This document shows, one piece after another, positions 1 to 57,664 of a DNA stretch of 64,000 nucleotides. Both the position numbers and the translations under genes were made by a program. The notes below the pieces were generated by a model. That model saw only the letters and a program-made list of their open reading frames with translations. It ran no database searches and had not been told where the DNA came from. Source of the stretch: Picosynechococcus sp. PCC 7003 (lineage in GTDB: Bacteria > Cyanobacteriota > Cyanobacteriia > Cyanobacteriales > MRBY01); assembly GCF_001693255.1 (NCBI RefSeq), contig NZ_CP016474.1, positions 886,661-950,660 on the forward strand, given 5' to 3'. Positions within the stretch are counted from its first letter, which is position 1. Each line of letters starts with the position of its first letter.

Positions 1-616
1 CCACCCACGGCGTTTCATCTTGTTCTTGGAAATAACCCAAATCTTCTAACTGTTGACGATAATCAGCACCATAGCGGGGCATCCGGGCAAAGGGCAAATT
101 CCCTTCTGTACGTTGGGGTAAGATGCGGCGCCGTTGGTAAGGCACGGTATCTAAGCCAAAATTGTCGAGATATTCCTCAGAGTTTAAGAGGGCATCCACA
201 AAGCCATTTAAACCTTGGGTCGCCAACAAAATAGACCAAGAGAGAACTTCTTTTTGACCATAAATATCGCGACCGAGTACCCGCTGAACACACATCTGCA
301 CAAAGCGATAATTATTGTTCACGTCATAGTTCCGTTGCCGGAAAGACTCGGACAATAACAACGCCCGGATAAAGTCCTGAACGGTGATAAAGCCGGATTT
401 CAGCTTAGATTCTTGAACTTTCAGGCGATTTTGTTCAAGCATCTGCTGCTCATTGAAAATTTGACGATAGGCCGCTTGAATTAAGGTATCAAAATCTGTT
501 TTTGCAAAAGCCGATGCCACGCTAAATTGCTTGGGACTTTCTTCACTGCCGATAAAAAAATCTTGTACCCGTTGATTCTGAGAGCTTGGTTCGTAGGTCA
601 ATAAAGGTATAGTCAT
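1..616 (-). CDS. cpcG: Phycobilisome rod-core linker CpcG, 3' end cut off by the window
   Basis: Partial gene, 205 codons from the ATG at 614-616 and running off the left edge. The product attaches phycocyanin rods to the allophycocyanin core of the phycobilisome on the thylakoid surface. The N-terminus MTIPLLTYEPSSQNQRV matches the CpcG family start, and the following region is the PBS linker (pfam00427-type) domain, with FITVQDFIRALLLSESFR and YRFVQMCVQRVLGRDIYG. The usual family length is about 250 residues, so roughly 45 residues are missing. The part that would separate a soluble CpcG1 from a membrane-anchored CpcG2/CpcL form (a hydrophobic C-terminal helix) is outside the window. The gene stands alone here, with no cpcBA visible. 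Confidence 0.9.
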   Translation of the reverse strand, partial: MTIPLLTYEPSSQNQRVQDFFIGSEESPKQFSVASAFAKTDFDTLIQAAYRQIFNEQQMLEQNRLKVQESKLKSGFITVQDFIRALLLSESFRQRNYDVNNNYRFVQMCVQRVLGRDIYGQKEVLSWSILLATQGLNGFVDALLNSEEYLDNFGLDTVPYQRRRILPQRTEGNLPFARMPRYGADYRQQLEDLGYFQEQDETPWV

Positions 617-1014
617 TTTTTTATAGTAAGTATTGACTTTAGAATATAAAAAGAATTAACTTTATCAAAACTATAGGCTAGACTGGGCAAGGTTTCAGGA
701 AGGTTGCTTTTTTTAAAGTAAGATTTATTTTTCTTAAGTTTTGGCCACAATCCCCCCTAAGGGTCTACGGATATAATGTATTCGTTACTTGAAAATATTC
801 AATAAAACCCGAATCAATTTGATCTTAAAAAAAAGGCGATCGCCGCTCCTGATTTAGTTCATAAAAATCAAGATGGCTATGAATTTTTGGAAATTGCTCA
901 TTACTGCTGATTTTCAATTAGCAAGTTGATTTTTGAAGCGATCACCCTCCTTATCTCTCCACATAATTGAACGGCGATCGCCTTGAACATGAACGATATT
1001 AAGAATAATTGAAA
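617..1014. other. Intergenic stretch upstream of cpcG and downstream of the kinase cassette
   Basis: No complete gene is seen in these 398 bases. Two HIP1-type palindromes (GGCGATCGCC) lie near 836-845 and 973-982. An open stretch at about 846-908 (plus) would encode the end of a protein (…APDLVHKNQDGYEFLEIAHYC-stop) without a start codon; it may be the tail of a deleted gene. The cpcG promoter should lie just above 616. Confidence 0.5.
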
Positions 1015-2094
1015 TTACTTATTAATGACAATTACAGGATGTGCTCTGGGGTAGGGGCTTCCTGGAAAAGCGGAAAAAGAGACCTTATCCCCCAATTGAG
1101 GAGACCTCCCATAAACACTATCAAAATGAAAAAAAGTTTTTTGACCATTGTCATCTCGAATAAATCCATAAGTAGGCTTAGGATGTTCAATAAATTCACC
1201 AATTTTTCGAGAAATGACAGGATAACAAAAAGTTTCGCATACTTTCACTAATTCATTAGCTGTTGGTCTATCTTTTGGATTTTTCTGTAAACAAGAAAGA
1301 ATTACATTGAATAACTCATCCCCTAAAAATTTAAACTGAATTTTATTTTCGAGATAAGTAGGCTTGCTTGGAAGTTCAGCATCTAAGATCTTTTTTACTG
1401 CCTTTAAGCCGAAACCGAACGGTTTTTCTCCGCTGACTATTTCATAAACCATTGCTCCAAGAGACCAAATGTCAGATTCTTTACCTGCAGCATGAGAATC
1501 TTCAATCATTTCCGGAGACATATATGGGAGCGCACCAATAGCTGTTTTAGAGGTGCTTAGTGAACTTTCTCCTTCTGCTGTGGCTTCAGCCATTTCTTCC
1601 TCAGCCATTTTTGCAATACCAAAATCAGTAATCTTAATTTCTGTCAAGTTAAAATCATCGGTCGACATCACATTACTTGGCTTTAAGTCCCTGTGGACTA
1701 CGCCAGCTTCATGTGCAACAGCAATGCCCTTTGCTAAATAGTGTAAAATCTTGGCTGTTAAATAAGGATCAACAAAATTAGTCCTTTGTAATAAACCATC
1801 TTTCAAATTCTTTCCTTGAATAAATTCTTCAATTAAGTATTGATGCTTGTCAGTTTCAAAATAATCCAATGTTTTAGCTACATTTGGATGATTAACCTTT
1901 GCACTCATTCTTGCACTTCTCGCAAATCTTTTCGTCGCAGATGAGTTAAAAGGAACTTTTAGTGCAACTTCACGTTTTATTACTCGATCAAAAGCAAGAT
2001 ACACTTCTTGCATACCACCTTGGTCTACATAGCTTACTATTTCATATCTATTAGCTATGAAGTCACCTTTTTGATGTAGATTATCTGATGTCAT
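1015..2094 (-). CDS. Hanks-type Ser/Thr protein kinase with C-terminal cold-shock-like domain
   Basis: The 359-residue protein has a full kinase domain: glycine loop near 25-32 (DQGGMQEV), lysine K46, catalytic loop HRDLKPSN 134-141, DFG 157-159, and an SPE in place of APE at 193-195. There is no transmembrane segment, so it is probably cytoplasmic. Residues about 298-356 are not kinase: the string YGFIRDDNGQKTFFHFDSV followed by LGDKVSF has the order of a cold-shock (OB-fold) domain, compare GFI…G.D.F.HFS…..G..V.F. This would give the kinase a nucleic-acid-binding module. It overlaps the upstream kinase by 4 bases (ATGA) and is the last gene of a PP2C-kinase-kinase cassette. Kinase identity is certain; the cold-shock call rests on motif order only. 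Its target is unknown. Confidence 0.88.
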   Translation of the reverse strand: MTSDNLHQKGDFIANRYEIVSYVDQGGMQEVYLAFDRVIKREVALKVPFNSSATKRFARSARMSAKVNHPNVAKTLDYFETDKHQYLIEEFIQGKNLKDGLLQRTNFVDPYLTAKILHYLAKGIAVAHEAGVVHRDLKPSNVMSTDDFNLTEIKITDFGIAKMAEEEMAEATAEGESSLSTSKTAIGALPYMSPEMIEDSHAAGKESDIWSLGAMVYEIVSGEKPFGFGLKAVKKILDAELPSKPTYLENKIQFKFLGDELFNVILSCLQKNPKDRPTANELVKVCETFCYPVISRKIGEFIEHPKPTYGFIRDDNGQKTFFHFDSVYGRSPQLGDKVSFSAFPGSPYPRAHPVIVINK

Positions 2095-3164
2095 AAGACC
2101 ACCTCAGGATTTGAAATATCAAAGGTTATAAAAGTTCTACTATGATCACCTTCAAAGGTAATAACACAATTATTAGGTAGCAATTGATTCACCCTAATAC
2201 TGTTACGATTTACAGTAATATTCCCAGCATAATGAGCGACAACAAAATCCAAACCATTATACTGAATAGTTAGAGACCCTACATTGTCAATATTGAGATT
2301 CACAGAAGATTTGTCTTTTGAAATAACTTCGGTACGACCATTTGAGGTGAGAAGAGCACGATGTTTCCCAAATAATAAATGCTTTTTAAGAACATCTTTT
2401 ATCGTTTGAGCAGAGGGTCTATCTTGTGGATTAAATGCTAATGTTTGGTCAAGTATATTAGTAATGTCATTCGATAACTCGAAGGTCACTTCTTTGAAAC
2501 TAGGCTTGGGAGAAGTACTAGGCGGAATTTTTGAAAATGATTCATCAAGTTCTAATCCTGCAATATACCTCGCAGTTACCCCAAAGGCATAAATATCTAT
2601 CGCTTTGGTGAAGTGAACGAAGCCAGAGGAATATAGTTCAGGTGCAGCAAATAAGGTTGTCCCCTTAAATCCCATAGTTGAGTTGTTTTGGTTCTCAGTT
2701 CTGGTGAGTCCGAAATCAAATATCTTAATTAAATTGGCTGCATCAAACTTGATATTGTTAGGCTTAATATCCCTGTGAATTAAGTCTTTCTCATGTATAT
2801 CAGATATGCCCGATATAATTTGATATAAGATTTTTATGTATTCATTTTTTGATAGCTCTTGCGTCAAAACTCTTGATACTAAATCCTCACCCTCTATATA
2901 TTCTTGTACTATTCCGGGTCGTCTATTTTCTTCGTCTAAGATAACATCAAAAATTTGGACTATGTGTTTAGATCGTATATCCTGATGGAGTTTACACATG
3001 GCTTGGATTTCGTCTGTGAGCCTAGATGTATCATTATCATCTTGAATAAACTTAATAGCGACTTTCCGATCAAGATTAAGATCTTGACAGACAATAACTT
3101 CACCCATTCCACCTTTTAAAACTTGATCTAGCTGTCTATAACGACAGGGAAGAGAATTAGTCAT
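2091..3164 (-). CDS. Hanks-type Ser/Thr protein kinase with beta-rich C-terminal domain
   Basis: The 357-residue kinase has a glycine-rich loop KGGMGEV (17-23), K38, HRDIKPNN 130-137, DFG 150-152 and APE 174-176, so all catalytic residues are present. No membrane helix is visible. The last 90 residues are beta-rich, with a repeating hydrophobic pattern (SLTIQYNGLDFVVAHY, GNITVNRNSIRVNQLLPNN) that loosely resembles the second half of an FHA domain, but the usual SRxH phosphothreonine motif is not seen. The gene overlaps the phosphatase upstream by 8 bases and the second kinase downstream by 4, so the three are very probably co-translated. Base composition is clearly more AT-rich than the putA region next door. 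Confidence 0.88.
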   Translation of the reverse strand: MTNSLPCRYRQLDQVLKGGMGEVIVCQDLNLDRKVAIKFIQDDNDTSRLTDEIQAMCKLHQDIRSKHIVQIFDVILDEENRRPGIVQEYIEGEDLVSRVLTQELSKNEYIKILYQIISGISDIHEKDLIHRDIKPNNIKFDAANLIKIFDFGLTRTENQNNSTMGFKGTTLFAAPELYSSGFVHFTKAIDIYAFGVTARYIAGLELDESFSKIPPSTSPKPSFKEVTFELSNDITNILDQTLAFNPQDRPSAQTIKDVLKKHLLFGKHRALLTSNGRTEVISKDKSSVNLNIDNVGSLTIQYNGLDFVVAHYAGNITVNRNSIRVNQLLPNNCVITFEGDHSRTFITFDISNPEVVL

Positions 3165-4218
3165 TTATTGCTACCTCCTCTGTAAATTCAATTTTTAACT
3201 GTGGCTTGTCTTGTTTCTTCTGGTTTTCCAAAGATGATTTTTGTTTTCTTTGCTTGTTTGGCTTTCTTGTATTTTTTTCTTTATTTATATCTGTACTTTG
3301 AACCTCATTTTGATGAGAAGGAAGAGAGTCTGAAACTTTAATAGTAAAAAAATCGGTTTTCCCGGGAAGGCTCCACACCTCAAGGCGACTATCTTCCTTT
3401 TTTGAATTTAGCTGATTTGAAAGTGAATTAATAGATATTGCAGAAATTGTCGCATTATCTTTCCCACCAAGCCAAACAGAAATACGTGTTAATCTGTCAA
3501 CAATTTCAGTGATACTTTTAGCATTTTGAATAATCTCTTGAAATACCTTCTGAGGAATACTATGTGCTCCATCTGATGTTAAAAGAATGAACTTAAGATT
3601 TTCCGTCCGAACAATACTTGTTGTAGGCTCTATTCCGTCTCCCATGCCGACAAATTGCAACAGTTGTCTAAACTCAGGAGGGGGAGCTTTTAATCTTAAT
3701 TCAGCTAACTGCTCTTCGAGAGTATCATCTGTGGTTAATTGTTCAATCGGTTTTTCATCATAAACAGCGTATATTCTGCTATCTCCTACATTAACGATTG
3801 CCCATTCATGATTCTGACAAGCAATACTTGATAATGTCGAACCTCCTTTTCCCTGAAAATGTTTATATACAGTTTTATTTGCGATATCTACTGCGGCACT
3901 TAGTTTTTGACTTAAAGACTTTTCGTTACTATGAATCAGGGTTGCAGTAAAACTACTTATAGCTAAGTTGGCACAATCTCCCCCTTCCTGCATCCCACCC
4001 ATTCCGTCACAAAGTACGAGGGCAAACATTGGAGGTTTCCGATTATCTTCAAATCGAACTTGGAAAAAAAGAGTTCTGTCTTGATTCTCCTGTCGATTTC
4101 CTAAAACACTTCCGAGAACAACATGACCTCGGTCAACGGTGGTTAAACCACATTTGTTCCCAGAAGATAACCATCTTGATATTGCATCTTGTACTTGAGA
4201 GTGGAGTGCATGACTCAT
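3157..4218 (-). CDS. PP2C-family Ser/Thr protein phosphatase
   Basis: The 353-residue protein is a metal-dependent PP2C phosphatase. Visible motifs are ENQDR (44-48), the metal-binding DGMGG (71-75), VNVGDSRIY, LLTSDGAH and GGKDNATISAI near the end of the catalytic domain at about residue 265. The last 80 residues are a charged, lysine-rich tail (KPNKQRKQKSSLENQKK) that may be disordered. It is the first gene of a three-gene cassette and would be expected to reverse phosphorylation made by the two kinases behind it; that pairing is inference. Its own promoter should lie in 4219-4340, an AT-rich gap with no other gene. Confidence 0.9.
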   Translation of the reverse strand: MSHALHSQVQDAISRWLSSGNKCGLTTVDRGHVVLGSVLGNRQENQDRTLFFQVRFEDNRKPPMFALVLCDGMGGMQEGGDCANLAISSFTATLIHSNEKSLSQKLSAAVDIANKTVYKHFQGKGGSTLSSIACQNHEWAIVNVGDSRIYAVYDEKPIEQLTTDDTLEEQLAELRLKAPPPEFRQLLQFVGMGDGIEPTTSIVRTENLKFILLTSDGAHSIPQKVFQEIIQNAKSITEIVDRLTRISVWLGGKDNATISAISINSLSNQLNSKKEDSRLEVWSLPGKTDFFTIKVSDSLPSHQNEVQSTDINKEKNTRKPNKQRKQKSSLENQKKQDKPQLKIEFTEEVAIND

Positions 4219-4340
4219 ATGAATTTTAGAGTTTTAGGGCTTTTGCTTTCTATATTTTATTTGATATTAGTCCTCTGTTGCATCTATCTAGCTGATCGCC
4301 CTCCCACTTATTAGTAAAAGGACGATATGACTTTTATGAA

Positions 4341-7300
4341 TTAATCACCCCCTTCGATGGGGGCAAACCCTTGCCGTTGCACATTTTCCGTCACATGGCG
4401 TGGCTCTAGGAATTGCAGTAGATAATCAGGCCCTCCCGCCTTAGAACCCACACCGGACATCTTGAAGCCGCCAAAGGGTTGACGCGCCACAATCGCCCCG
4501 GTAATGCCCCGGTTGATATAGAGATTACCCACTTCAAATTCCTCCGTTGCCCGCTCAATGTGCTGCGGTGTCCGGGAATAAAGCCCCCCGGTTAATGCGT
4601 AGTCTGTGCTATTGGCAACTATTAAGGCTTCATCAAAAGAACTCACTTTAATCACCGCTAATACCGGCCCAAAAATCTCCTCCTGGGCGATCGCATGATC
4701 CGCTTGCACATCAATGAAAATAGTCGGGGACACATAGAAACCATTATCGGGAACTGCTGTTTCAAAGGCGACGGCAGATTGTTCCTTGCCCTTCAGGATG
4801 TAGTCCTTAATTTTCGCTTGGGCCGCCCCGTCAATAACCGGCCCCATCTTGACACTGGGATTATCGGTTTCGCCGACCTGAATCGATTTCACCGCCTCGA
4901 CTAAACGTTCCACAAAAGTATCGTGGATTGATTCCAGCACAATGGCCCGGGAACAAGCCGAACATTTTTGACCGCTATAACCAAAGGCCGAATGGAGCAC
5001 TCCCGCCACCGCTTGGTCGAGATCGGCACTGTCATCAACGATAATGGCGTTTTTTCCGCCCATTTCGGCAATGACCCGTTTCAAATGCTTCTGACCCGGT
5101 TGTACGATCGCCGCATTGGCATAGATATTACAACCCACTTCCCGGGAACCCGTAAAGGCAATGAGATGTACATCGGGATGGGTCACCATCGCCGCTCCCA
5201 CCGTGGAACCGCGTCCCGGCACAAACTGAAATACTCCCTTGGGGATCCCCGCTTCAATGAGGATTTCGGCAATTTTTGCGCCGATCACGCTAGAAGTTTC
5301 AGCGGGTTTTAGTAGGGTACAGTTGCCCGTCACCAAGGCCGCAACGGTCATCCCCGTGGCGATCGCAAAGGGGAAATTCCAAGGGGAAATAACAACAGCA
5401 ATGCCCCGCGGTTGGTAATGGTAGCGGTTGGTTTCACCACAAACATCGTACTTTTTGAAGCCCTGCACTTGGGAGAGATCATCGGGTTTGACCTGGTAGC
5501 CATAGTGCAAACGCTCTATTTCATCGGCGTAGTAGCGACAGAAATCAATGGCTTCGGAGACTTCCGGATCCGCTTCCTTGAGGATTTTGCCCGTTTCTAA
5601 ACAAATCCACGCATTCAACTCGTGGCGACGGGCTTCCATAATCTCCGCTGCCTTCCGGAGAATGTTGGCCCGTTCCGAGACGGGGGTTTTCTTCCAGGCG
5701 GGAAAAGCGGCTTTGGCGGCGGCGATCGCCTCCGTTGCTTGCTCTAGGGAAATTTGACCAACTTTACCAATGAGTTCTGTGGAACGGGAGGGATTGACCG
5801 AGTCCACCAAATTTTCGGTTTGTACATATTCGCCGTTGATGTAAGGCAGATAACGTTTGCCAAGCTGCTTTTTCACCTCGGCGATCGCAAACTGGGATTT
5901 ATCCCGGAGATCTGGTTCTGCATAGTCGGTATTGGCAGCCCCCGCAAATTGCAGATGGCTACTGTCGAGATCATGAATGGTTGCGTTGAGATCCCCTGTC
6001 GGCGGCGCGATCAATTCCTCCACCGGACGCTCCTCTAGGTTCTGGCGCAGGAAAGAACTATTGGCGGTATTTTCTAGTAAACGCCGGATTAGGTAGGCCA
6101 TGCCCGGCAAAATCTTGCCATAGGGACAGTACACCCGCACCCGATAACCCTCCTTCACCAACGCCTTCGCAATTTGGTCGCCCATGCCGTACAGCACCTG
6201 ACATTCAAAGTTACGGCGGGGAATCTTGAGTTCCTTGGCGATCGCACAGGCCACCGCCTGGGAGCGCACATTATGGCTGGCGATCGCCCCGTAGAGATAC
6301 TGATGGTTTTCCAGCAGCAGACGAGTCATGCGCTCGTAATTAATATCCGTTGCGCCCTTTTCGTTAAAAACAGGCTGTTCCCAATGGTTTTGCAGCGCCG
6401 TGATCGTTTCTTGATCCCAGTAAGCGCCTTTCACAAGACGGACGGTGACAGGGGTGCCCCGTTCCTTGGCCCAGGCAACTAAACTTTCTAAGTCTGCGTA
6501 AGAATCCCGCAAGTAGCCCTGTAAAGTCACGCCAATATCACTACGGTGCCGAAACTCCTCTTCCAGCAACACGTCTTTCAAAATCTGGAGGGTGAGGGTT
6601 TTATATTCGTAATGCTCCATATCAAAGTGCACCGCAACTCCCAATTCCTGGGCATGGCGCAACAGTAGGCGCACCCGTTCCGCGACATTTTCTTTGCTGC
6701 CTGCCGGATCGAGGGGGTCAAACTGCGAATAAAACGCCGTTAATTTTACGGATACTTGCACCTTTGCAAGATCCTCACCGTCCGCCTCATCGATTTGATT
6801 GACCTTCGACCAATGTTTTGCTGCCGCCGTGAGGTCTGCCATTAAATCGAGGTAAGTTTGCTGATATTTTTGTGCTTCTGCTTCGGTGATCACCGCCTCC
6901 CCCAACAGATCAATGGTGAAGGCCATTTTGTCCCGGCGCAGACGTTCAACGGTTTTCAAGACCTGTTTGACGTTTTCCCCCGAAATATATTTAAAGGCGA
7001 GGGTTTCCACCGATTTACTAATGGTGGCAGCGGCTAACTGAGCTGGAGGGGATTGGGGTTCGGTAAAGTTCAGAATTTTTTTTAAGGCCCCAGGCAACTC
7101 CACCGACTCGTCCCCTAGGTATTGTTGGAGATGCTGGGCGATCGCCCCGTTATCTTTTAGGGCTGGCAACACATCGATAAAGCGAAACAGTTGCACCCGT
7201 AGATGGGGATTTTCCATGGCCCAGCCCAGCAATTTATCGTCCAGGCGCATCTGGTCTTGGAGTTTCGAGAAAAATGACCGTTTTTCCCGGGTAGCGGCGA

Positions 7301-7361
7301 TTAACTCCCTGGCAATTTGTTGGGTACGCGCTTCGTAACGATCCTGAGCATCGATGACCAC
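4341..7361 (-). CDS. putA: Bifunctional proline dehydrogenase / glutamate semialdehyde dehydrogenase
   Basis: The enzyme oxidises proline to pyrroline-5-carboxylate (FAD-dependent) and then to glutamate (NAD-dependent). The 1006 residues show the proline dehydrogenase barrel at about 150-460, with VHFDMEHYEYK and RLVKGAYWDQE, and the aldehyde dehydrogenase domain at about 505-985, with FTGSREVG and the catalytic cysteine in GQKCSAC (C800). The N-terminal DNA-binding ribbon-helix-helix of enterobacterial PutA is absent, so this form is purely enzymatic. It is monocistronic on the minus strand, 105 bases downstream of the ammonium transporter. Both genes deal with nitrogen supply, but a shared transcript is not shown. 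Confidence 0.95.
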   Translation of the reverse strand: MVIDAQDRYEARTQQIARELIAATREKRSFFSKLQDQMRLDDKLLGWAMENPHLRVQLFRFIDVLPALKDNGAIAQHLQQYLGDESVELPGALKKILNFTEPQSPPAQLAAATISKSVETLAFKYISGENVKQVLKTVERLRRDKMAFTIDLLGEAVITEAEAQKYQQTYLDLMADLTAAAKHWSKVNQIDEADGEDLAKVQVSVKLTAFYSQFDPLDPAGSKENVAERVRLLLRHAQELGVAVHFDMEHYEYKTLTLQILKDVLLEEEFRHRSDIGVTLQGYLRDSYADLESLVAWAKERGTPVTVRLVKGAYWDQETITALQNHWEQPVFNEKGATDINYERMTRLLLENHQYLYGAIASHNVRSQAVACAIAKELKIPRRNFECQVLYGMGDQIAKALVKEGYRVRVYCPYGKILPGMAYLIRRLLENTANSSFLRQNLEERPVEELIAPPTGDLNATIHDLDSSHLQFAGAANTDYAEPDLRDKSQFAIAEVKKQLGKRYLPYINGEYVQTENLVDSVNPSRSTELIGKVGQISLEQATEAIAAAKAAFPAWKKTPVSERANILRKAAEIMEARRHELNAWICLETGKILKEADPEVSEAIDFCRYYADEIERLHYGYQVKPDDLSQVQGFKKYDVCGETNRYHYQPRGIAVVISPWNFPFAIATGMTVAALVTGNCTLLKPAETSSVIGAKIAEILIEAGIPKGVFQFVPGRGSTVGAAMVTHPDVHLIAFTGSREVGCNIYANAAIVQPGQKHLKRVIAEMGGKNAIIVDDSADLDQAVAGVLHSAFGYSGQKCSACSRAIVLESIHDTFVERLVEAVKSIQVGETDNPSVKMGPVIDGAAQAKIKDYILKGKEQSAVAFETAVPDNGFYVSPTIFIDVQADHAIAQEEIFGPVLAVIKVSSFDEALIVANSTDYALTGGLYSRTPQHIERATEEFEVGNLYINRGITGAIVARQPFGGFKMSGVGSKAGGPDYLLQFLEPRHVTENVQRQGFAPIEGGD

Positions 7362-7466
7362 AGCTGAAAATTCTCCGAAAAGACCTATGGTTTAATTTTC
7401 CCGGAAAAAGGCAGGCCCAGAGGTAGAGGCTTTGTCAGTGTTTCAGGACTTGGTGAATTTATATTT

Positions 7467-9197
7467 TCAGTCGCTCCAATCTGCGGAAACTGGCTGATTT
7501 TCATCGGAAGGAGCGTTGGGAGCCTGTATTTGCTCTAAAAATTCCCCAAAACTGGTGGTGGCGATCGCCATTTGGGTAATCTCAGCCATGGTCAGGGTCG
7601 GAGGTAAGTCGGGTAACTGCCCTTGATAAGTGAGACTAGGCTCCCCAAACCGCTGCTGGAAAATTTCTCCGAGCACTGCCTTCAGGGTCGTTTGCTGTTG
7701 CTGCTGTAATTGTTCGAGGGCCGCTGTTTGTTGGTTAATGGTCTGGAGCAACTGTTGCAGGGAGCGGCCTAAAATGCCCAATTCATCGGGGCGATCGCCA
7801 AAACTGGCAAACAAATCTGGGTCAAAATTTTGATGTTCAATGGCAGCCACAGCCATCGCAGTGATCGTGTAGAGTTCCTCTAGGGATTCGGCATTTTCCC
7901 GGTGGTTTTGTTCCAGGGCGTCGATGACCTGGTTGTAACGGGTGGCAATGTGGCCAATCTCCGTAAAGGGTTCCACGGGCACCCGCAGGGTCAAATCTTG
8001 GGTCGCGGCCTGGTGATCCATCACCTGGAATAGTTCATAGGCATCGGTTTTGGCACCATGTTCGGAGATATTCAAGCCCAGGGCTTCGGCCTCCGGGGAA
8101 ACCCGCAAAGGGTACCATCGCTGCAATAGTTTTAAAATGAGCCAAGTCAGCCCTGTCCCCCAGGCAAGGGCGATCGCCACCCCCAAGAGTTGCACCAACA
8201 GTTGACTATGGCGGGCTTCGACATTGCCAAATAAACCAACACAGAGGGTTCCCCACAGGCCCGCACCCCCATGGACGGCGATCGCATCCACTGCATCATC
8301 AATTTTGTAGCGTTTTAAGAGACTAGATACCCACCGAGCCACCCCGGCCGCCGTAATGCCCACCACCACCGCCAAGGGACTCGATACTAGATCACAGCAG
8401 GCCGTAATCGCCACCAGCCCCGCCAGGGAACCATTGATAATTTCCTCGACCTCTGAGCGCTTGAGATACCATTGGCTGAGGAGCATCGCTGTGACCATCC
8501 CCGCAGTTCCCGCCAGCACTGTATTGGTAATGATCTGGGGGACTTGGTCATTAAACGCAAAAGTACTCCCGCCATTGAATCCCAGCCAACCCACCCACAA
8601 CAACAATGTCCCCAAAACCGCAAAGGGCAGGTTTGATCCCTGGATTTTCTGTGCCCCCGTGGTGGTAAAGCGCCCTTCCCTGGCCCCGACCAAAAGCAAG
8701 GTGCCCAGGCTCACCCAAGCCCCCATGCTGTGAACCACCGTACTACCCGCAAAATCCAAGAACCCCAGTTGCCGCAGCCACCCCGCTTCGTTCCAGGCCC
8801 AATGCCCAAAAATCGGATAAATAAACCCCGACACCAGGATCACAATGATGATGTAGGCTTCAAACTTTAACCGTTCGGCGATCGCCCCCGAAATAATCGT
8901 TGTGGCCGTACCGCAAAACATCGCTTGGAACAGGAAAAAAGCGGCCTCTTCTGGGTTGCCAGTCGTTCCCAAAAAGAAATTACTCCCACCGATGCCTCCC
9001 CACTGGGATAACCCAAACATCAGACCATAGCCAATGCCCCAAAATAACATCACCGACAGACCAAAATCGGAGAGGTTTTTAACGGCCACATTAATGTTAT
9101 TTTTTGTGCGGGTCAGGCCAGATTCGAGGCACATAAAACCGGCTTGCATTAACAGCACCAAACCAGCACAAATCAGCAACCACAGTTGATCAATCAT
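7467..9197 (-). CDS. amt: Amt-family ammonium transporter with HAMP-like signalling tail
   Basis: The N-terminal 400 residues are an Amt/Rh channel: GLTRTKNNINV after the first helix, DFAGSTVVHSMGAW and AVHGGAGLWGT carrying the twin pore histidines. The total of 576 residues is about 130 longer than a plain Amt. The cytoplasmic extension reads LTLRVPVEPFTEIGHIATRYNQVID, a HAMP-like helix-turn, then a coiled coil rich in Q and E (TINQQTAALEQLQQQQQ). No histidine-kinase, GGDEF or other catalytic domain follows. The extension could sense transport state or bind partners; this is inference. The next minus-strand gene is putA. Confidence 0.92.
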   Translation of the reverse strand: MIDQLWLLICAGLVLLMQAGFMCLESGLTRTKNNINVAVKNLSDFGLSVMLFWGIGYGLMFGLSQWGGIGGSNFFLGTTGNPEEAAFFLFQAMFCGTATTIISGAIAERLKFEAYIIIVILVSGFIYPIFGHWAWNEAGWLRQLGFLDFAGSTVVHSMGAWVSLGTLLLVGAREGRFTTTGAQKIQGSNLPFAVLGTLLLWVGWLGFNGGSTFAFNDQVPQIITNTVLAGTAGMVTAMLLSQWYLKRSEVEEIINGSLAGLVAITACCDLVSSPLAVVVGITAAGVARWVSSLLKRYKIDDAVDAIAVHGGAGLWGTLCVGLFGNVEARHSQLLVQLLGVAIALAWGTGLTWLILKLLQRWYPLRVSPEAEALGLNISEHGAKTDAYELFQVMDHQAATQDLTLRVPVEPFTEIGHIATRYNQVIDALEQNHRENAESLEELYTITAMAVAAIEHQNFDPDLFASFGDRPDELGILGRSLQQLLQTINQQTAALEQLQQQQQTTLKAVLGEIFQQRFGEPSLTYQGQLPDLPPTLTMAEITQMAIATTSFGEFLEQIQAPNAPSDENQPVSADWSD

Positions 9198-13170: not shown

Positions 13171-15315
13171 CTATTGAGCAGCAACTCGGGCCGCGGCAGC
13201 TTCATCTGGGTGAATTCCAAGGCGTGTGAGGTTAATGCGTCCTTTGTTGTCAATTTCGCGCACTTTAACCACTACTTCATCACCAACGGCAACTTCATCT
13301 TCGACTTTGCCCACGCGGCCTTCTGCCAGTTGCGAAATGTGAATCATCCCTTCTTTACCCGGCATAATTTCCACGAAGGCACCGATCTGGATAATACGGG
13401 TGACTTTACCGAAATATACATCCCCTTCATTGAGCTTACGGGTCATGTTTACGATCAGCCGTTTGGCTTTTTCGGCATTTTCCGATTCAGAGGAGGCGAT
13501 CGTTACGGTACCGTCATCGGCAATATCCACCTTGGCACGGGTTTGCTCAGTAATCCCTTTAATGGTTTTACCACCAGGGCCAATGACCATCCCAATTAAA
13601 TCGGGATCAATCTTGATGGTGAGCAGACGGGGAGCGGCTGGGGACAATTCCTTCGGCTCAGCAATGACATCGGTCATCTTTTCGAGGATATGGAGACGGG
13701 CCGGTAAGGCTTGCTTAATGGCTTCTGCCACCACTTCAACGGCCAGGCCAGTGATCTTCATATCCATCTGGAGGGCGGTAATTCCGTCAGCTGTCCCGGC
13801 AACCTTAAAGTCCATGTCGCCGAGGAAGTCTTCAATCCCCTGGATATCGGTGAGGATGCGAACTTCTTTTCCTTCTTTGATCAGCCCCATCGCGGCACCA
13901 CTCACGGGCTTGGCAATGGGTACCCCGGCATCCATTAGGGCCAGGGTAGAGCCACAAACGGAACCCATGGAGGTGGATCCGTTGGAAGATAAGACTTCAG
14001 AGACGACCCGAATGACGTAGGGAAATTCATCCTTCGGCGGCAATACGGGTAAAAGGGCGCGTTCGGCCAAGGCACCGTGGCCAATCTCCCGGCGGCCAGG
14101 CGATCGCATTGGGCGAGTTTCACCCACGGAGTAGGGGGGGAAATTGTAATGGTGCAGGTAGCGTTTTTCGTCGGAGGGATGCAAATCATCCATTTCCTGG
14201 GCATCACCGGGCGTCCCAAGGGTGGCAATGGATAAAACCTGGGTCAAGCCGCGATTAAATAGACCACTACCATGGACAGCTCTCGGTAACACAGCCGTGC
14301 GGCAAGAAATGGGGCGCACTTGGTCTAGTTTACGACCATCAACCCGGACTCCATCTTCGACGATTTGGCTCCGCATCAGCTTTTTCGTCAGCGCTTTGAA
14401 GGTGTTGTCAATGAGCTTGGGTTCTTCTGTGGTCTTCACCCGCAGTGGCGCATCCTCTGGCAGGGCTTCGATGGCCTCAATAATTTCTGTTGCTTTGATT
14501 TCATCGAGGTCGGCATCGCGACCGTTTTTGTCTAGGTCAAATTGACTCAGGACTTTTTTGATCTTGTCAGTGGCGCGATCGCCAATGAATTTTTCTAGCT
14601 CCTCATCCTTAGCGGGCGGTTCAGCACTGACCATTTCAAGGCCGAGTTCCTTCATCAGCGAACGCTGGGCCTCGATCAACTCTTGGATCGCTTCGTAGGC
14701 AAAATCAATCGCCTCGATCATGTCTGCTTCTGGCAACTGATTGGCCCCGGCTTCAACCATGATCACACCGTCGGGAGTTCCAGCAACCACAAGGTCTAAA
14801 TCCCCATTCATCATTTCCCGGTAAGTAGGATTCAGGATGAAATCATCCCCCACTAAACCAACCCGGACAGCAGCCATCGGCCCATAGAAAGGTAAACCTG
14901 CGAGCAATGTGGCCACGGAAGCCCCTGTCACAGCGAGGACATCCGGCGGTACTTCTTCATCGAGGGAGAGGGTTGTGGCAACGATTTGAATATCGTCTCG
15001 CAACCACTGGGGAAATAGCGGACGCATCGGTCGGTCAATGAGGCGCGAAATGAGCGTTGCCCGTTCTGGAGGTCTACCTTCTCTTCTTAAATAACCACCA
15101 GGAATCCGTCCTGCTGCGTATAATCGTTCTTCGTAATCTACCAGTAAAGGTAGAAAGTCAATCCCTTGTCTGCCAGGAGCTGTCGTTGCACTAACTAAAA
15201 CCGCTGTATCTCCTGATTCAATTAAAACTGACCCGCCGGCCTGAGGCGCAAACAAACCTGTTTTTAGTCGGATTTCTCGTCCATCGAAAGAAATCGACTG
15301 AATATGTTCTTGCAT
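13171..15315 (-). CDS. pnp: Polynucleotide phosphorylase (PNPase)
   Basis: Phosphorolytic 3'-5' exoribonuclease that also adds heteropolymeric tails in cyanobacteria. The 714 residues hold two RNase PH cores (about 1-230 and 310-545; [15 protein letters not shown] and [21 protein letters not shown] near the active site), a KH domain ([11 protein letters not shown] at about 570) and an S1 domain ([21 protein letters not shown] at about 625-690). The length is normal. Divergent from the ribosomal operon that starts at 15908. A decayed partial copy of this gene lies at 10672-10803. Confidence 0.97.
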
Positions 15316-15504
15316 TATTGCGTGTTGTCCTTTTGTGTATAATCACTTTTCTTCGTTCTGTGGCAATCGTAACACTTTATGCTGGCTCCGACCTTAGACA
15401 ACGTTGGCGATCGCCTTTGGTCTTTTTGCCCCTAAACGATCACCCCTAAACCACCAAGCCCCGTCCTAAGAATTAAGAACTGTCATGTTTTTCTGATATG
15501 CCCC

Positions 15505-15534
15505 TTGCCAAGGCTCACTTTCTCCGCTTATAAT
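15505..15534 (+). promoter_or_regulatory. Strong sigma-70-type promoter ahead of the ribosomal operon
   Basis: TTGCCA (15505-15510), an 18-base spacer and TATAAT (15529-15534) point towards rplC. Transcription would start near 15541, leaving a leader of about 365 bases. Confidence 0.7.
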
Positions 15535-15540
15535 GCTCGC

Positions 15541-15907
15541 TTGTGGCTAAATGTAACCAGTTATACGAAGTTTCCTGGCGAAGCATAGAACCCCTGCCCC
15601 CTTGTTCGTCGCATCGGTTCAACACAGAAACAGGCTTCTCTGAGGCTGCATTCTTCGGTCACATCTTTTGGGCGATCGCCCCAAGCGGCAGCCCCCATCC
15701 TGCAGTTACAGCAAGATACTGAAGCAAGCGCTTTAAGTCTTGGGTAAAACGTAGCACCCCTACCTGTAGGCAAAAACCTTTCAGAGCCATAAAACACTCT
15801 GAATATCCAAGAGTAGAAGACAAGAACCACAACTCTTTCGGGAGCGGTTCATATTATTTCTACTCACCTTTTAATGTTGTCTATTAGTAGATAGAGGTCT
15901 CTGTTCC
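15541..15907 (+). other. Long untranslated leader between the promoter and rplC
   Basis: No credible gene is seen; the 89-codon minus-strand open frame (15561-15830) has no recognisable domain. The leader contains a HIP1 palindrome (about 15671-15682) and a hairpin TTCAGAG…CTCTGAA at 15780-15802. It may hold a regulatory RNA structure or a small RNA on either strand. The base composition is not AT-rich, which is unusual for an empty spacer here. Confidence 0.45.
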
Positions 15908-16549
15908 GTGTCACTCGGTATCCTCGGTACTAAACTCGGTATGACCCAAATCTTTGATAACGAAACTGGAACTGCGATTCCCGTTACCGTTGTCCAAGCA
16001 GGGCCCTGTACCGTCACCCAAATCAAAACCTCCGAAACAGATGGCTACACCTCCGTGCAAATCGGCTACGGAGACGTTAAGGAAAAAAACTTAACGAAGC
16101 CTCAACTGGGGCATCTCAAAAAAGCGGATGCTGCCCCCCTCCGCCACCTCAAGGAATATCGCCTCGATGACGTTTCTGGCTATGAACTTGGCCAAGCGAT
16201 CACTGCGAATATTTTTGAGGCTGGCCAAGTTGTCGATGTTTCTGGAAATACCATTGGTCGTGGTTTCGCTGGCTATCAAAAACGCCATAACTTTAAGCGA
16301 GGCAACATGACCCACGGTTCTAAAAACCACCGTCTCCCCGGTTCTACCGGTGCAGGGACGACTCCCGGTCGCGTTTATCCCGGTAAGCGCATGGCAGGTC
16401 GTTATGGTGGAACTAAGATCACCGTCCGTAAACTCGAAGTCGTTCGCGTTGACGAAGAAAAGAATTTATTGCTGATCAAAGGTGCAATTCCTGGCAAAGC
16501 CGGCAATTTATTAAGTATTGCTCCGAGCAATATTGTGGGCCAAAAATAA
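15908..16549 (+). CDS. rplC: 50S ribosomal protein L3
   Basis: Early-assembly protein of the large subunit that reaches towards the peptidyl transferase centre. The 213-residue product starts [16 protein letters not shown], the classic L3 opening, and contains the loop [20 protein letters not shown] and [10 protein letters not shown]. Start is GTG at 15908. It is the first gene of the S10-spc-alpha cluster; rpsJ (S10) is not in front, as usual in cyanobacteria, where it lies with tufA. Confidence 0.97.
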
Positions 16550-16649
16550 TGAGTCTTGCGTGGCGATCGCCACCTGCAATCTTTTTATAGAAAACCACAA
16601 CTTTATTTATTTCATTAGCTGATAACCGATAATCCGATACTTCATCACT

Positions 16650-17282
16650 ATGGTTAACTGCGCAGTAAAAAATTGGCAAGGAGAAGAAGTTGGCCAAGCC
16701 AACCTCGACTTCAAAGTTGCCAAAGAAGAAAATGCCGCACATATTGTCCACCGCGCCCTTGTACGTCAGCTAAATAACGCGCGTCAGGGAACTTCTTCCA
16801 CGAAAACTCGTGCAGAAGTCCGTGGCGGTGGCCGCAAACCTTGGCGTCAAAAAGGAACTGGCCGGGCAAGAGCTGGTTCAATCCGTTCCCCATTATGGAA
16901 GGGCGGTGGTGTCATCTTTGGCCCCAAACCCAAGGAATACAACCTCAAAATGAACCGCAAAGAGCGTCGTTTAGCGCTTCGTACCGCTTTCCACAGCCGC
17001 AACGAAGATCTCATCGTCGTTGAAAACTTTGCTGAACAATTTGCCGCGCCCAAAACCAAGGAATTGGTAAGTGCCATGTCCCGCTGGGGTGTGGCATCTG
17101 GTGAAAAGGTACTCCTTGTCCTTGCTGAGATGACAGACAATGTATATCTCTCTGCACGCAACATTGCTTCTGTGAAAACGGTTCCTGCTGACGGTTTGAA
17201 TATTTTTGATATTCTCAACGCTGGCAAGATCGTCGTCACCGCCGAAGCTCTGGCTAAAATCCAGGAGGTTTACAATGACTAG
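16650..17282 (+). CDS. rplD: 50S ribosomal protein L4
   Basis: Large-subunit protein whose extended loop lines the exit tunnel. The 210 residues include the tunnel-loop region [21 protein letters not shown] and the globular part with [14 protein letters not shown]. Its stop (TAG 17280-17282) overlaps the L23 start by 8 bases, indicating coupled translation. In enterobacteria L4 represses the operon; nothing in this sequence shows whether that holds here. Confidence 0.97.
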
Positions 17283-54060: not shown

Positions 54061-54288
54061 ATGTATACGGTTCAACTAAATGAGAAAAATGATCGCCTTG
54101 CGCAATTGATTGAAAAGGTTATTCAGGGTGAAGAGGTCGTTATTCTTTGTGATGATGGCTCTTCTTTCGAGTTAATGCCGACGAATCTCAAGAAGCCACA
54201 GCCAAAATTCGGCAGCGCAAAGGGTTTAATCTGGATGTCGGATGATTTTGATGATCCGATTGAAGGTTTTGAGGATTATGAACCGTGA
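54061..54288 (+). CDS. Antitoxin of a Phd-like / PIN toxin-antitoxin pair
   Basis: 75 residues: MYTVQLNEKNDRLAQLIEKV, then IQGEEVVILCDDGSSFELMP. The strand-helix-strand start (QLNEK…LAQLIEKVIQGEEVVI) is like Phd/YefM or DUF2281 antitoxins; the acidic C-terminus (DDFDDPIEGFEDYEP) would bind the toxin. AGGAG lies 5 bases before the ATG. The stop overlaps the toxin start by 4 bases (GTGA), the hallmark of coupled expression. Confidence 0.82.
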   Translation: MYTVQLNEKNDRLAQLIEKVIQGEEVVILCDDGSSFELMPTNLKKPQPKFGSAKGLIWMSDDFDDPIEGFEDYEP

Positions 54289-54671
54289 AGTTGATTTTAG
54301 ATACCCATGCTTTCCTCTGGTTTATCAATGGTAGCGATCGCCTTAGCCCAACAGCGAGAGAGCTAATTGAGGATCCAAATAATCAACGTTATCTGAGTAT
54401 TGCTAGCCTTTGGGAATTGTCGATTAAGGTCAGTATCAATAAACTAAAATTAGGCATGAGCTTAATCGATTTGGTGGAGCGAGAAGTAAAAGGTAATGAT
54501 ATGGAAGTTTTTCAAATTAATCCACATCATTTAGAGAAACTTAGTCAACTGTCTTTTTATCATAAAGATCCTTTTGACAGATTAATTATTGCCCAAAGTT
54601 TAGTTGAAGATATAGCAATTATTACCCAAGATTTTCAGTTTATTCAATACTCTGTACGAATATTGTGGTAA
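54285..54671 (+). CDS. PIN-domain toxin (VapC-type ribonuclease)
   Basis: 128 residues starting GTG: MKLILDTHAFLWFINGSDRL, with the PIN acidic residues at D6, E43 (ASLWELSIK), D97 (YHKDPFDRLIIAQ) and D115-type (TQDFQF). PIN toxins cut RNA and are held by the neighbouring antitoxin. All metal-binding positions are present, so the toxin is probably active. Related to the DTHAFLW subgroup paired with Phd antitoxins. Confidence 0.88.
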   Translation: MKLILDTHAFLWFINGSDRLSPTARELIEDPNNQRYLSIASLWELSIKVSINKLKLGMSLIDLVEREVKGNDMEVFQINPHHLEKLSQLSFYHKDPFDRLIIAQSLVEDIAIITQDFQFIQYSVRILW

Positions 54672-54722: not shown

Positions 54723-54965
54723 ATGAAGTTTGAAGATCTGAAAAAACGGCTTGACAAAGATCGTCCGATGACAACGATTACACTGCGGATGCCAGAAGAG
54801 GCGATCGCCTTGTTTTATGAGCAGATTGCCAAGCATCATGGTTTGCCGTTCCAGATTGATGATTATAGTGAGGAGACGCTAGCGACTTTTGCGGCAACAG
54901 ATCGGGGTGAAGATTTAGTTGTTTGTGAAGATGCCGAGGATATGTTTAGTAAACTAAAGCTTTAG
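54723..54965 (+). CDS. Small protein with ribbon-helix-helix-like start, possible antitoxin
   Basis: 80 residues. The segment MTTITLRMPEEAIALFYEQIAKHH (given here from residue 16) is a beta strand plus helix like a ribbon-helix-helix DNA binder; the C-terminus is acidic (EDLVVCEDAEDMFSKL). I do not recognise the family. It follows the PIN toxin by 51 bases and precedes another small gene; together they could be a second toxin-antitoxin pair. Confidence 0.6.
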   Translation: MKFEDLKKRLDKDRPMTTITLRMPEEAIALFYEQIAKHHGLPFQIDDYSEETLATFAATDRGEDLVVCEDAEDMFSKLKL

Positions 54966-54999: not shown

Positions 55000-55149
55000 A
55001 TGAGTAAGTCGTTTACATTTGTTGATCATGGTTATCAGGGTGAAGAATTTACTCGTCAATTTATCAAACAAGAATTTACAAGTCATAGCTTGTCGAAAAT
55101 TGCCAAAGCTAAAGCTCCGACCAAAGAAGAACAGGGGCTACGCATCTAA
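55000..55149 (+). CDS. 49-residue orphan protein
   Basis: Begins MSKSFTFVDHGYQGEEF and ends KEEQGLRI; 49 residues. A weak AAGGAAAA lies about 10 bases before the ATG (55000). It is rich in K and Q with no known motif. It may be a small toxin partner of the preceding gene or the remaining start of a truncated protein. Confidence 0.45.
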   Translation: MSKSFTFVDHGYQGEEFTRQFIKQEFTSHSLSKIAKAKAPTKEEQGLRI

Positions 55150-55201
55150 TTTGCGAAAAGCAGGCTATACAAGCTTTTCAGAGATGATCGTAATTTTCAC
55201 T

Positions 55202-55240
55202 AAATTCTCAAACCTTTATCTGGTAAAGGTTTGAGAATTT
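55202..55240 (+). promoter_or_regulatory. Perfect 17-bp inverted repeat directly before a start codon
   Basis: The arms AAATTCTCAAACCTTTA (55202-55218) and TAAAGGTTTGAGAATTT (55224-55240) are exact complements around TCTGG. The right arm ends two bases before the ATG at 55243 and contains the only plausible ribosome-binding bases (AAGG, GAG). It could be an operator for an autoregulator, an RNA hairpin that hides the start site, or the terminator of the small gene upstream (it lacks a long T run). Confidence 0.85.
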
Positions 55241-55242
55241 AG

Positions 55243-56214
55243 ATGCGTTTACCCTGCAAAGAAGAATTGGTCAATTTAGTTCATAGAAAAATTAAGTCAG
55301 GTGAAATAAGTGAAAACGAGGTTTGGAAAGAGTATATTACGAGAGATTGTAATTGGATAAGTTTTAAGATTGGAAGTTGTCAAAAATTAGATATAAACTT
55401 ACAAGATCCAAAGATTTTACTTTATGAATTTGGACAGGATGGATGGTACGGTCCAATAATAAAAGACGATAAAAAATATCTATTAAGAACTTATCGAATT
55501 AGTGCTACAGAAAATGTAAACTATCGTTGGAGTGTGATATGTGAAATTGCTCCTGATTATGTTGCTTTAATGTGGAGAGGCTTTACGGTTCAAGGTCTTG
55601 CCGATCAAAAACAAAGAGGATACCAGTTTGAGTTTTGGGATTATATTCCTGATATTTATGAGTTTTTACAAAAAAAATTCATGGGAAATTGGCAAGATAT
55701 CAACCTCTATAATTTTGTGTTAAAAAATTTATGGTCAAAATATAATCAGCCAAATGATTCTAAATATAAATGGTTTCATGAAGGTGTAAGAGCAACATCT
55801 TCAGGTGTAACTTTAAATGCACGAACAGGAAAAGCACTGGATATAGAAGGTAAAGGATTAACGGCTCTATCCAAAGCACTAGCGGAATCCTGTTTGTTAG
55901 CTCAAAATCCTCAACTTGATTTATTACTTCAACCTAAAATCGAAGATGCTATTACAAAAACTTTAATGCGTGAATGGGGAACAAGATCTTATGAATTTTC
56001 TCTAGAAAAAGTAATGGCAAATTCTCAATCATTGGACAAAAATCAAAAATTAATCAGAGCACATTTTTACTTTGGGAATGGCAATACAACTCAAGGACAA
56101 GATAGTCTACAACATATTAAATGTTATGCAGAGTGGGGAGGGGCAAGAAAAGTACTCGAATTTATACTAAATGAATTAAGGGATAATAATGGAAAAATCC
56201 AGAGCATTAGTTAA
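55243..56214 (+). CDS. Unknown 323-residue protein, first gene of a nuclease cassette
   Basis: Not recognised. MRLPCKEELVNLVHRKIKSG opens a soluble protein with an aromatic-rich beta region (YRWSVICEIAPDYVALMWRGF; about 60-150) and a helical second half containing GVTLNARTGKALDIEGKG and TALSKALAESCLLAQ. No membrane helix or classical enzyme motif is visible. It is strongly AT-rich relative to chlH and the FHA gene. The stop overlaps the next gene by 26 bases, so they are made together. In such cassettes a first large protein could be a sensor or adaptor; that is only inference. Confidence 0.78.
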   Translation: MRLPCKEELVNLVHRKIKSGEISENEVWKEYITRDCNWISFKIGSCQKLDINLQDPKILLYEFGQDGWYGPIIKDDKKYLLRTYRISATENVNYRWSVICEIAPDYVALMWRGFTVQGLADQKQRGYQFEFWDYIPDIYEFLQKKFMGNWQDINLYNFVLKNLWSKYNQPNDSKYKWFHEGVRATSSGVTLNARTGKALDIEGKGLTALSKALAESCLLAQNPQLDLLLQPKIEDAITKTLMREWGTRSYEFSLEKVMANSQSLDKNQKLIRAHFYFGNGNTTQGQDSLQHIKCYAEWGGARKVLEFILNELRDNNGKIQSIS

Positions 56215-56572
56215 AGCTCTAAACTTCCTATCCATGTATGAAAGAAATGAGCTAGAAAAGATGATTCTATCTCGTGATAGTTTAATGCCCCATGAAATCA
56301 CCAATAAGCTGTCTATAACCTATGAAAAAGCTTTAGCCTTTTTGCTAGCTTGTGAGCTATATAACTTTGCAAAAGTATATCTACTTGTTTATCATTTATG
56401 TGAACCAGATAAATATATAAAAGCAATTCCATTTCATTTAGGAATACCTAAATTGCCTTTTGTATGTGAAAACTGTGATGAAGAAATCGAAGATATCTCC
56501 GAGCTCTCGTTTGACGTAATTGCACAGTTTAAATTTAAACAGAGCTTGATTGAAGAATTGAGAAAAAATTAG
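56189..56572 (+). CDS. Small helix-turn-helix-like protein with CxxC motif
   Basis: 127 residues. The N-terminal 60 are helical and look like a winged helix (ERNELEKMILSRDSLMPHEI, KLSITYEKALAFLLACE). The C-terminal half has FVCENCDEEIEDISELSFDV, a single CxxC knuckle followed by a conserved-looking acidic stretch, reminiscent of half a zinc ribbon. A transcription regulator or an adaptor for the nuclease behind it are both possible. It overlaps the first gene by 26 bases and abuts the nuclease with no gap. Confidence 0.72.
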   Translation: MEKSRALVKALNFLSMYERNELEKMILSRDSLMPHEITNKLSITYEKALAFLLACELYNFAKVYLLVYHLCEPDKYIKAIPFHLGIPKLPFVCENCDEEIEDISELSFDVIAQFKFKQSLIEELRKN

Positions 56573-57367
56573 ATGAATATTCATTTAAATTCTCAGCAAC
56601 TAATACAGAATGCAATAGATGCTTATCAATTATTAGATCAAAGCTTAAAAGCTTGTAGTGAGCAAGGCATAGACCGACTAGAAGTATTTGATAGGCATTT
56701 CTATGAACCCCATGAAATTCTTACAGAACTATTATTAGAATTTAAAAATTTTCTCGAAAGTCAGTATTCTTCTCCAGAGGAAAAACAAAATGCAGGATAT
56801 CTTTTAGAGAAAATCGCCATTTTAAGTTTTGGAAGCTTAAAGGGATACAATAACCTGAAAGCATACCAATCAATGAGTGCTCAATATGATCTATTGATTT
56901 CGGGGAATTCTCCAGAATGGGAAAGTCTTTTTTCTATTTTGAGAATAGATGATCTGCCAAAGGGAATACTTTTAGAGGCAAAAGCAACTAATGGCAAAAT
57001 AAATGATTCACAATTTTCCCGATTATGTAGTTTAATCGATCATAATTTTTCAAAATCCGTAGGTCTGGGTATTTTTTTTAGTATTAATTCACTTTCTGGA
57101 TTGCCAGAAGAAAGAGAACAACGTCTGAGAAAAGCAAGCGATGGATATCTTAAACAAATCATTTTTTATTGTAAAACTAAAATACCTATTATTGTCTTAG
57201 ATAAAGAGGACATTCTTCAATTAGATAAGCCGGGAAGCCTGATAAAAATTTTAGATAGAAAAATTCGTGAATTAGAAGAAATGACTGGTACAAAAATTGA
57301 GCCTATACAATCAAAAGTTATTGATATTCCTCCAAAATTCAATGATGTTTTAAAGTGGCTTGAATGA
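56573..57367 (+). CDS. Probable PD-(D/E)xK-type restriction-like nuclease
   Basis: 264 residues. The core reads E79 in YLLEKIAILSF, D106 in QYDLLISG, and E135-A-K137 in GILLEAKATNG, the spacing and order (E…D…ExK) of a restriction-endonuclease fold active site. After it come a helix (SQFSRLCSLI) and strands (SVGLGIFFSINS, IPIIVLDKED). An N-terminal helical region of 60 residues may hold the partner site. It is the last gene of the three-gene unit; its TGA overlaps an ATG (ATGA at 57364). The fold is inferred from motifs only. Confidence 0.75.
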   Translation: MNIHLNSQQLIQNAIDAYQLLDQSLKACSEQGIDRLEVFDRHFYEPHEILTELLLEFKNFLESQYSSPEEKQNAGYLLEKIAILSFGSLKGYNNLKAYQSMSAQYDLLISGNSPEWESLFSILRIDDLPKGILLEAKATNGKINDSQFSRLCSLIDHNFSKSVGLGIFFSINSLSGLPEEREQRLRKASDGYLKQIIFYCKTKIPIIVLDKEDILQLDKPGSLIKILDRKIRELEEMTGTKIEPIQSKVIDIPPKFNDVLKWLE

Positions 57368-57664
57368 CATTGAAATTTCTTCATCAAAAGTCAATCACCA
57401 AATTTAATTCTTATGTCTTTAGCTCTAACGTTCACTATCCAGAACATTTCCCTGATGCTGTTGGCAAAACTCAACGTGAATTTGAGGAAGAAGCAAAATA
57501 GACAATGGCAGTTAAACTATTTGAACAGAAGCGAATTTCTTCAGATGGCGGCAATTCTGATTAGTGTAGATCGAGTCACGTTTTTGACGCGATTACAAGA
57601 ATATAATGTACCGATGATCGACTTGACAGAAGATGAAATTTCATCGGATTTAGCCAATGCATAA
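57364..57664 (+). pseudogene. Broken UPF0175-family antitoxin gene
   Basis: Three pieces in two frames add up to one UPF0175-like protein: VHYPEHFPDAVGKTQREFEE-EEAK, a TAG stop at 57499-57501, then MAVKLFEQKRISS, a frame change near 57545, then MAAILISVDRVTFLTRLQEY and NVPMIDLTEDEISSDLANA to 57664. Such proteins are antitoxins of PIN toxins. No partner toxin follows. The first piece has an ATG in an ATGA overlap with the nuclease stop, but its first 20 residues are not UPF0175-like. Confidence 0.8.

Follow-up and report, generated by a model that had tools for sequence, protein, structure and literature searches.

What role is played by three AT-rich genes that lie between chlH and an FHA gene in the cyanobacterium Picosynechococcus sp. 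PCC 7003? The question was raised by a sequence-only reading of 64,000 nucleotides of this genome (contig NZ_CP016474.1, positions 886,661 to 950,660, called here the window), in which the genes, named A, B and C below, were taken for a compact nuclease cassette and a candidate defence system. It is argued here that they form one accessory and mobile DNA-cutting system, most likely directed against phages or plasmids, and a probability of about one half is given to this reading. The features of the locus are collected in Table 1. The coordinates of the three open reading frames were reproduced, together with the 26-base overlap of A and B and the zero-base gap between B and C, and the trio is indeed AT-rich (31.7% GC vs 49.9% in the flanks). 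Of the neighbours named earlier, a VapB-like/PIN pair beside the trio (54061-54671), the FHA gene and a UPF0175 gene were seen again. The UPF0175 gene (57365-57664) is broken: it carries an in-frame TAG as well as a frameshift, and its N- and C-terminal parts lie in different frames. Directly upstream of gene A there is a RelB-like antitoxin gene (54723-54965) with no evident toxin partner. Scans for promoters and terminators gave counts at chance level.

Table 1. Coordinates of the trio and of the insertion in gene A (positions of the window)
Feature	Position	Strand	Basis or remark
Gene A, separated N-terminal fragment (49 aa)	55000..55149	+	Native start codon; stop lies inside the MITE
Gene A, main piece (323-aa ORF)	55243..56214	+	ATG from the MITE end; homologues in 21 loci
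Gene B (127 aa, predicted winged helix and CxxC zinc protein)	56189..56572	+	Conserved residues; weak profile matches
Gene C (264 aa, putative PD-(D/E)xK nuclease)	56573..57367	+	Invariant E79, Q104xD106, E135xK137; predicted topology
Left target-site duplication, 10 bp, caaagaagaa	55122..55131	.	Sequence; repeated at 55257-55266
MITE within gene A, 125 bp	55132..55256	.	Inverted-repeat ends CAGGG...ACGCATCTAA; 2 further 99%-identical copies in the genome
Right target-site duplication, 10 bp, caaagaagaa	55257..55266	.	Sequence

Homologues were drawn from 386 cyanobacterial genomes, a Nostoc plasmid, 84,980 species genomes and 301 genomes of the phylum to which locus L023 belongs, and they make up 21 distinct loci (the window, L008, L011, L012, L015-L029, L057 and L058). 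The order A-B-C, with all three genes at least partly present, was found in 18 of these loci, and in 10 of them all three genes are intact; the other three (L022, L028 and L058) hold pieces of A without B and C. Six of the 386 cyanobacterial genomes carry B, and these are also the six with C; A is found in all of them and, as a remnant with stops, in one more. The genes were thus not found mostly apart, an outcome that would have spoken against the cassette, and the trio stands as one conserved three-gene unit. The pairwise distances of the A, B and C proteins are correlated at about 0.96, a value that common descent alone can raise, and the three genes are co-inherited and co-evolving. Close pairs of intact copies show dN/dS of 0.10-0.37, and judged by these ratios the intact copies are under purifying selection. 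The range can safely be given as Cyanobacteria and Chloroflexota, because L024, labelled Bacteroidetes, comes from a MAG contig of 4 kb with neighbouring genes that look Anaerolineae-like by eye, so that the label may be a binning error.

In a genome of the same genus (G058), with flanks 89-92% identical to those of the window, the gap between chlH and the FHA gene is filled by DarT1 and its NADAR antitoxin (L082, 3203-4480) and holds no trio. A sister species thus has the DarT1-NADAR pair where the window has the trio, which marks the space between chlH and FHA as a place where toxin-antitoxin or defence genes are exchanged, and copies of the trio come and go at sites of this kind. Of the RelB-like gene, 77 bp are common to the window and G058, and in a further genome (G209) no chlH flank was seen beside the FHA gene within the stretch read. 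The NADAR-DarT1 proteins share with the trio this very site, but they are unrelated to A, B and C, and their chemistry is ADP-ribosylation as against that of a nuclease.

Known or suspected defence genes lie near a number of other copies. At L058 (genome G165, 1-7535) the remnant of A adjoins a gene resembling Avs2, and DISARM DrmB-DrmC follow immediately beyond; PDC-M38 A and B stand directly downstream at L012 and, by resemblance, at L028. A helicase lies upstream of the trio at L011, HEPN and nucleotidyltransferase genes lie beside it at L023, and the vicinity of L057 holds a NERD-helicase match, weak ThsA-like and SAVED-CHAT-like matches and a resolvase-like gene. On the mobilizable Nostoc plasmid pTCL26-01_F the trio is placed between relaxase and partition genes, with a Mokosh-like helicase downstream. 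A defence-like mobility and neighbourhood are supported by the DarT1-NADAR swap, the plasmid copy and the Avs2/DISARM, PDC-M38 and helicase neighbours; it is this context that favours a defence role, and the association of the trio with defence genes is a qualitative one. The plasmid copy and the resolvase-like gene near L057 would also suit a trio that is cargo of mobile elements, serving plasmid stabilisation, homing or competition between elements with no benefit against phages. This is held to be quite unlikely, since most copies are chromosomal with no adjoining recombinase or plasmid genes, and no homologue of the trio was found among the phage genomes and viral contigs searched.

The copy in the window is not the intact cassette that the sequence-only reading supposed, because a MITE interrupts its gene A. 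Homologues of A that are intact run to 375-390 aa, and the 323-aa frame of the earlier reading is not the native gene; about the first 50 residues are lacking from it. These were recovered upstream, where an ATG at 55000, behind the ribosome-binding-like stretch taaggaaa, encodes MSKSFTFVDHGYQGEEFTRQFIKQEFTSHSLSKIAKAKAPTKEE... When the two pieces of A were aligned separately to the homologues, the peptide of 55000-55149 scored 16.3 bits against the A profile at positions 3-42, whereas none of 5000 shuffles exceeded 10.3, and the downstream frame takes up at profile position 42. The insert between them has the ends CAGGGGCTACGCATCTAA and, inverted, CAGGGTAAACGCATCTAA, and lies within a 10-bp duplication of its target; it brings to gene A a stop codon and, near its right end, a new in-frame ATG (55243). 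The start of the cassette as first drawn (55202) falls within the MITE, and the hairpin ahead of the ATG is the right part of the same element.

Two other copies of the MITE, 99% identical, are present in the genome with 10-bp duplications of their own (accaccccgc and gtctctgcat), and identical ends were found on three insertion sequences of about 1,230 bp elsewhere in it; the other positions of the family are G000:C1:381723, 1734598, 1862532, 2489409 and 2930246. One of these insertion sequences was read and encodes a DDE_Tnp_1 transposase with DDE_Tnp_1_assoc, also within a 10-bp duplication; the family is presumably ISAs1-like. Terminal inverted repeats, target duplication, three copies and a likely autonomous partner, the marks of a MITE derived from an insertion sequence of DDE type, were all found. 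As the copies are 99% identical, the family has moved recently, and with the ends common to the three insertion sequences this makes the insert a young MITE that likely has its autonomous partner in the same genome. Since the element lies within A, the trio in this genome is probably inactive, and some residual activity may come from a restart at the ATG carried in by the MITE.

Breakage of the trio is not confined to the window. Gene A is interrupted by a DDE-transposase insertion sequence at L011 and by deletions at L012 and L029; frameshifts were seen at L020, B and C are lost at L022 and L028, and C is split at L017. The trio or its remnants stand directly 3' of a gene reading as alaS at L012, L016, L019, L020, L022 and L028, often decaying in place. 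In at least four loci (the window, L011, L012 and L029) C has remained full-length with A broken, and B is intact in all four; more generally B is intact wherever C is, except for a frameshift in the MAG copy L024. These loci bear on the reading of the trio as a toxin-antitoxin or abortive infection system, in which C would harm host DNA and be restrained by B, or by A with B, until infection, so that the cell dies and the invading DNA is not selectively destroyed. The compact overlapping genes, the predicted small DNA-binding partner, the adjoining VapBC and RelB-like genes and the replacement of the trio by DarT1-NADAR in the sister species agree with such a system, which is nevertheless judged unlikely. 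A type II pair with A as antitoxin does not fit the four loci: C is tolerated there without A, therefore A is not an essential antitoxin, and a role of A as activator or target finder is favoured. B, intact in all four loci, could still restrain C.

The candidate effector of the proposed DNA-cutting system is C. The residues E79, D106 and E135xK137, pointed out earlier as a restriction-like core, proved invariant in all aligned homologues (sets of 13 and 8, some about 30% identical), and so did Q104, F148, R150 and L151, the most distant copy included. In the AlphaFold2 model (pLDDT 83.5) E79 lies in a helix, D106 in a strand and the ExK in the next strand, and the predicted topology, alpha-beta-beta-alpha-beta, fits that of PD-(D/E)xK nucleases; the core motif of that superfamily, D...(D/E)xK with an acidic residue in the preceding helix, is present in C. 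Foldseek ranked EndoMS, SfsA, Cap4, Can2, NucS and PspGI highly, interspersed with folds that are unrelated; the best PDB match, EndoMS, reached E 0.025, none falling below 0.001. C thus shares with EndoMS/NucS, SfsA, Cap4, Can2 and PspGI the order of acidic helix, D strand and ExK strand and a downstream helix with a conserved R, and these families are among its top fold matches; it differs from them in having no sequence match and no significant fold match, and it carries no fused CARF, SAVED or helicase domain. C stays a candidate nuclease of the PD-(D/E)xK type on the strength of motifs and predicted topology, and a substrate such as RNA, or another than DNA, is possible. It is not part of a Type II restriction-modification unit of the usual kind, as no methyltransferase belongs to the trio; methyltransferases come close to it only at L026, about 2 kb off and past unrelated genes. 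At that locus an N6/N4 DNA methylase (15118-16818) ends in a fused tail, Mrr-like or resembling an inactive REase, and a second methylase adjoins.

B was described earlier as a helix-turn-helix/CxxC protein, and the alignments agree with this. The N-terminus is winged-helix-like and bears MPH(Q/E)(L/I), while P34, Y68-H69 and C93xxC96 are conserved. Sequence searches gave only marginal zinc-finger-like matches, beside weak ones to the DprA winged helix and to rubredoxin.

The fold of A was approached through the intact homologue of L016, for which AlphaFold2 gave a helical N-terminus followed by two alpha/beta lobes (pLDDT 80.9, pTM 0.81); one member of the family has a weak SAP match in the N-terminus (E 0.03). 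Foldseek against the PDB returned CENP-N (E 5.4e-3, probability 0.96) and also CENP-L and Chl4, and against viral models it returned RdgC three times (E 0.06-0.34), TM being about 0.3 in both libraries. These were the most probable fold matches of the model, and both libraries point to one scaffold: according to the RexA structure paper, RexA, RdgC, Iml3 and Chl4 have a common DNA-binding architecture (PMC11077077; also PMC4080450, PMC5095916), and RexA is a phage-exclusion protein (PMC11077077). However, the A4 profile showed no similarity to eight RdgC sequences in hhalign (probability 0.1), which leaves RdgC without support as a sequence relative, and A has no match to the RdgC Pfam family PF04381. 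Because TM is about 0.3 and there is no profile match to RdgC, a fold of the RdgC/RexA/CENP-N-L kind is suspected as a lead and not claimed as membership. A also differs from these proteins by its extra helical N-terminus, and where RexA works with RexB, the predicted partners of A are a nuclease and an adaptor. Two other candidates were set aside: EspG3, the top PDB fold match by E-value, was judged to be noise (probability 0.38, TM 0.13), and RalF, a weak sequence match (E 0.03), was not supported by the fold search.

With EndoMS as the best fold match of C and an RdgC-like scaffold suspected for A, the trio might be an accessory complex of DNA repair or recombination, an EndoMS/NucS-like nuclease with an RdgC-like partner, and not a defence system at all. 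RdgC modulates RecA (PMC11077077), and several copies of the trio adjoin housekeeping genes (alaS, nadA and gyrA, recognised by eye), not defence islands, a point that also counts against a defence role. Such a complex is distinctly improbable, however, for the trio is carried by only 6 of the 386 cyanobacterial genomes, its copies are often broken, it is exchanged with DarT1-NADAR and it is found on a mobilizable plasmid, which together is not the pattern of housekeeping genes.

Comparison with known families leaves the proposed DNA-cutting system without a named relative. A, B and C have no convincing match in Pfam, NCBIfam, PADLOC, PHROGs or PDB sequences, and in PADLOC v2.0.0 (2023) no match at E <= 0.001 was obtained for them, or for the more distant B and C proteins. 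The trio is not described in the literature searched, supplements and subscription journals lying outside that search. The cassette, which the earlier reading could place with none that it knew, thus matches no named family, housekeeping family or defence system in the libraries searched, the defence systems being those of PADLOC 2023. Like the systems of PADLOC v2.0.0 (DISARM, Mokosh, Gabija, PARIS and others), to which some copies lie close, the trio is compact and exchangeable and has a putative nuclease effector, but it contains no ATPase, helicase or methylase of its own.

How the three proteins would work together can be outlined. We infer that A and B bind DNA and that C cleaves it, in a defence role. 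A, in this outline, would bind DNA, probably as a dimer; it would be a two-lobed protein of the RdgC/RexA/CENP-N-L kind, preceded by a short helical segment at its N-terminus, and would recognise a condition of DNA that is characteristic of invaders, be it ends, intermediates of replication or recombination, or modified bases. B, by its predicted winged helix and zinc site, would link A to C, and C would then cut the DNA. As methylase, ATPase and signal synthase are all absent from the trio, the sparing of the cell's own DNA would most likely depend on DNA structure or on conditional assembly. A bolder form of the same idea can be put forward as a tentative and rather doubtful one: an NTP-independent immune system in which a RexA/RdgC-like clamp on invader DNA licenses a dedicated PD-(D/E)xK nuclease through a zinc winged-helix adaptor, the clamp, a bacterial protein, being structurally related to the kinetochore proteins CENP-N/CENP-L. 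At about 2.3 kb the intact copies are small, and one of them is on the Nostoc plasmid, so the idea is open to direct test.

It can be said that three protein families unannotated in the libraries searched are nonetheless co-inherited as a trio across two phyla, and that the nuclease core is invariant. Should the trio be immune in function, it would add a defence system that works with no ATPase, methylase or second messenger, and it would carry the RexA/RdgC/CENP-N-L scaffold beyond phage exclusion, into a system armed with a nuclease.
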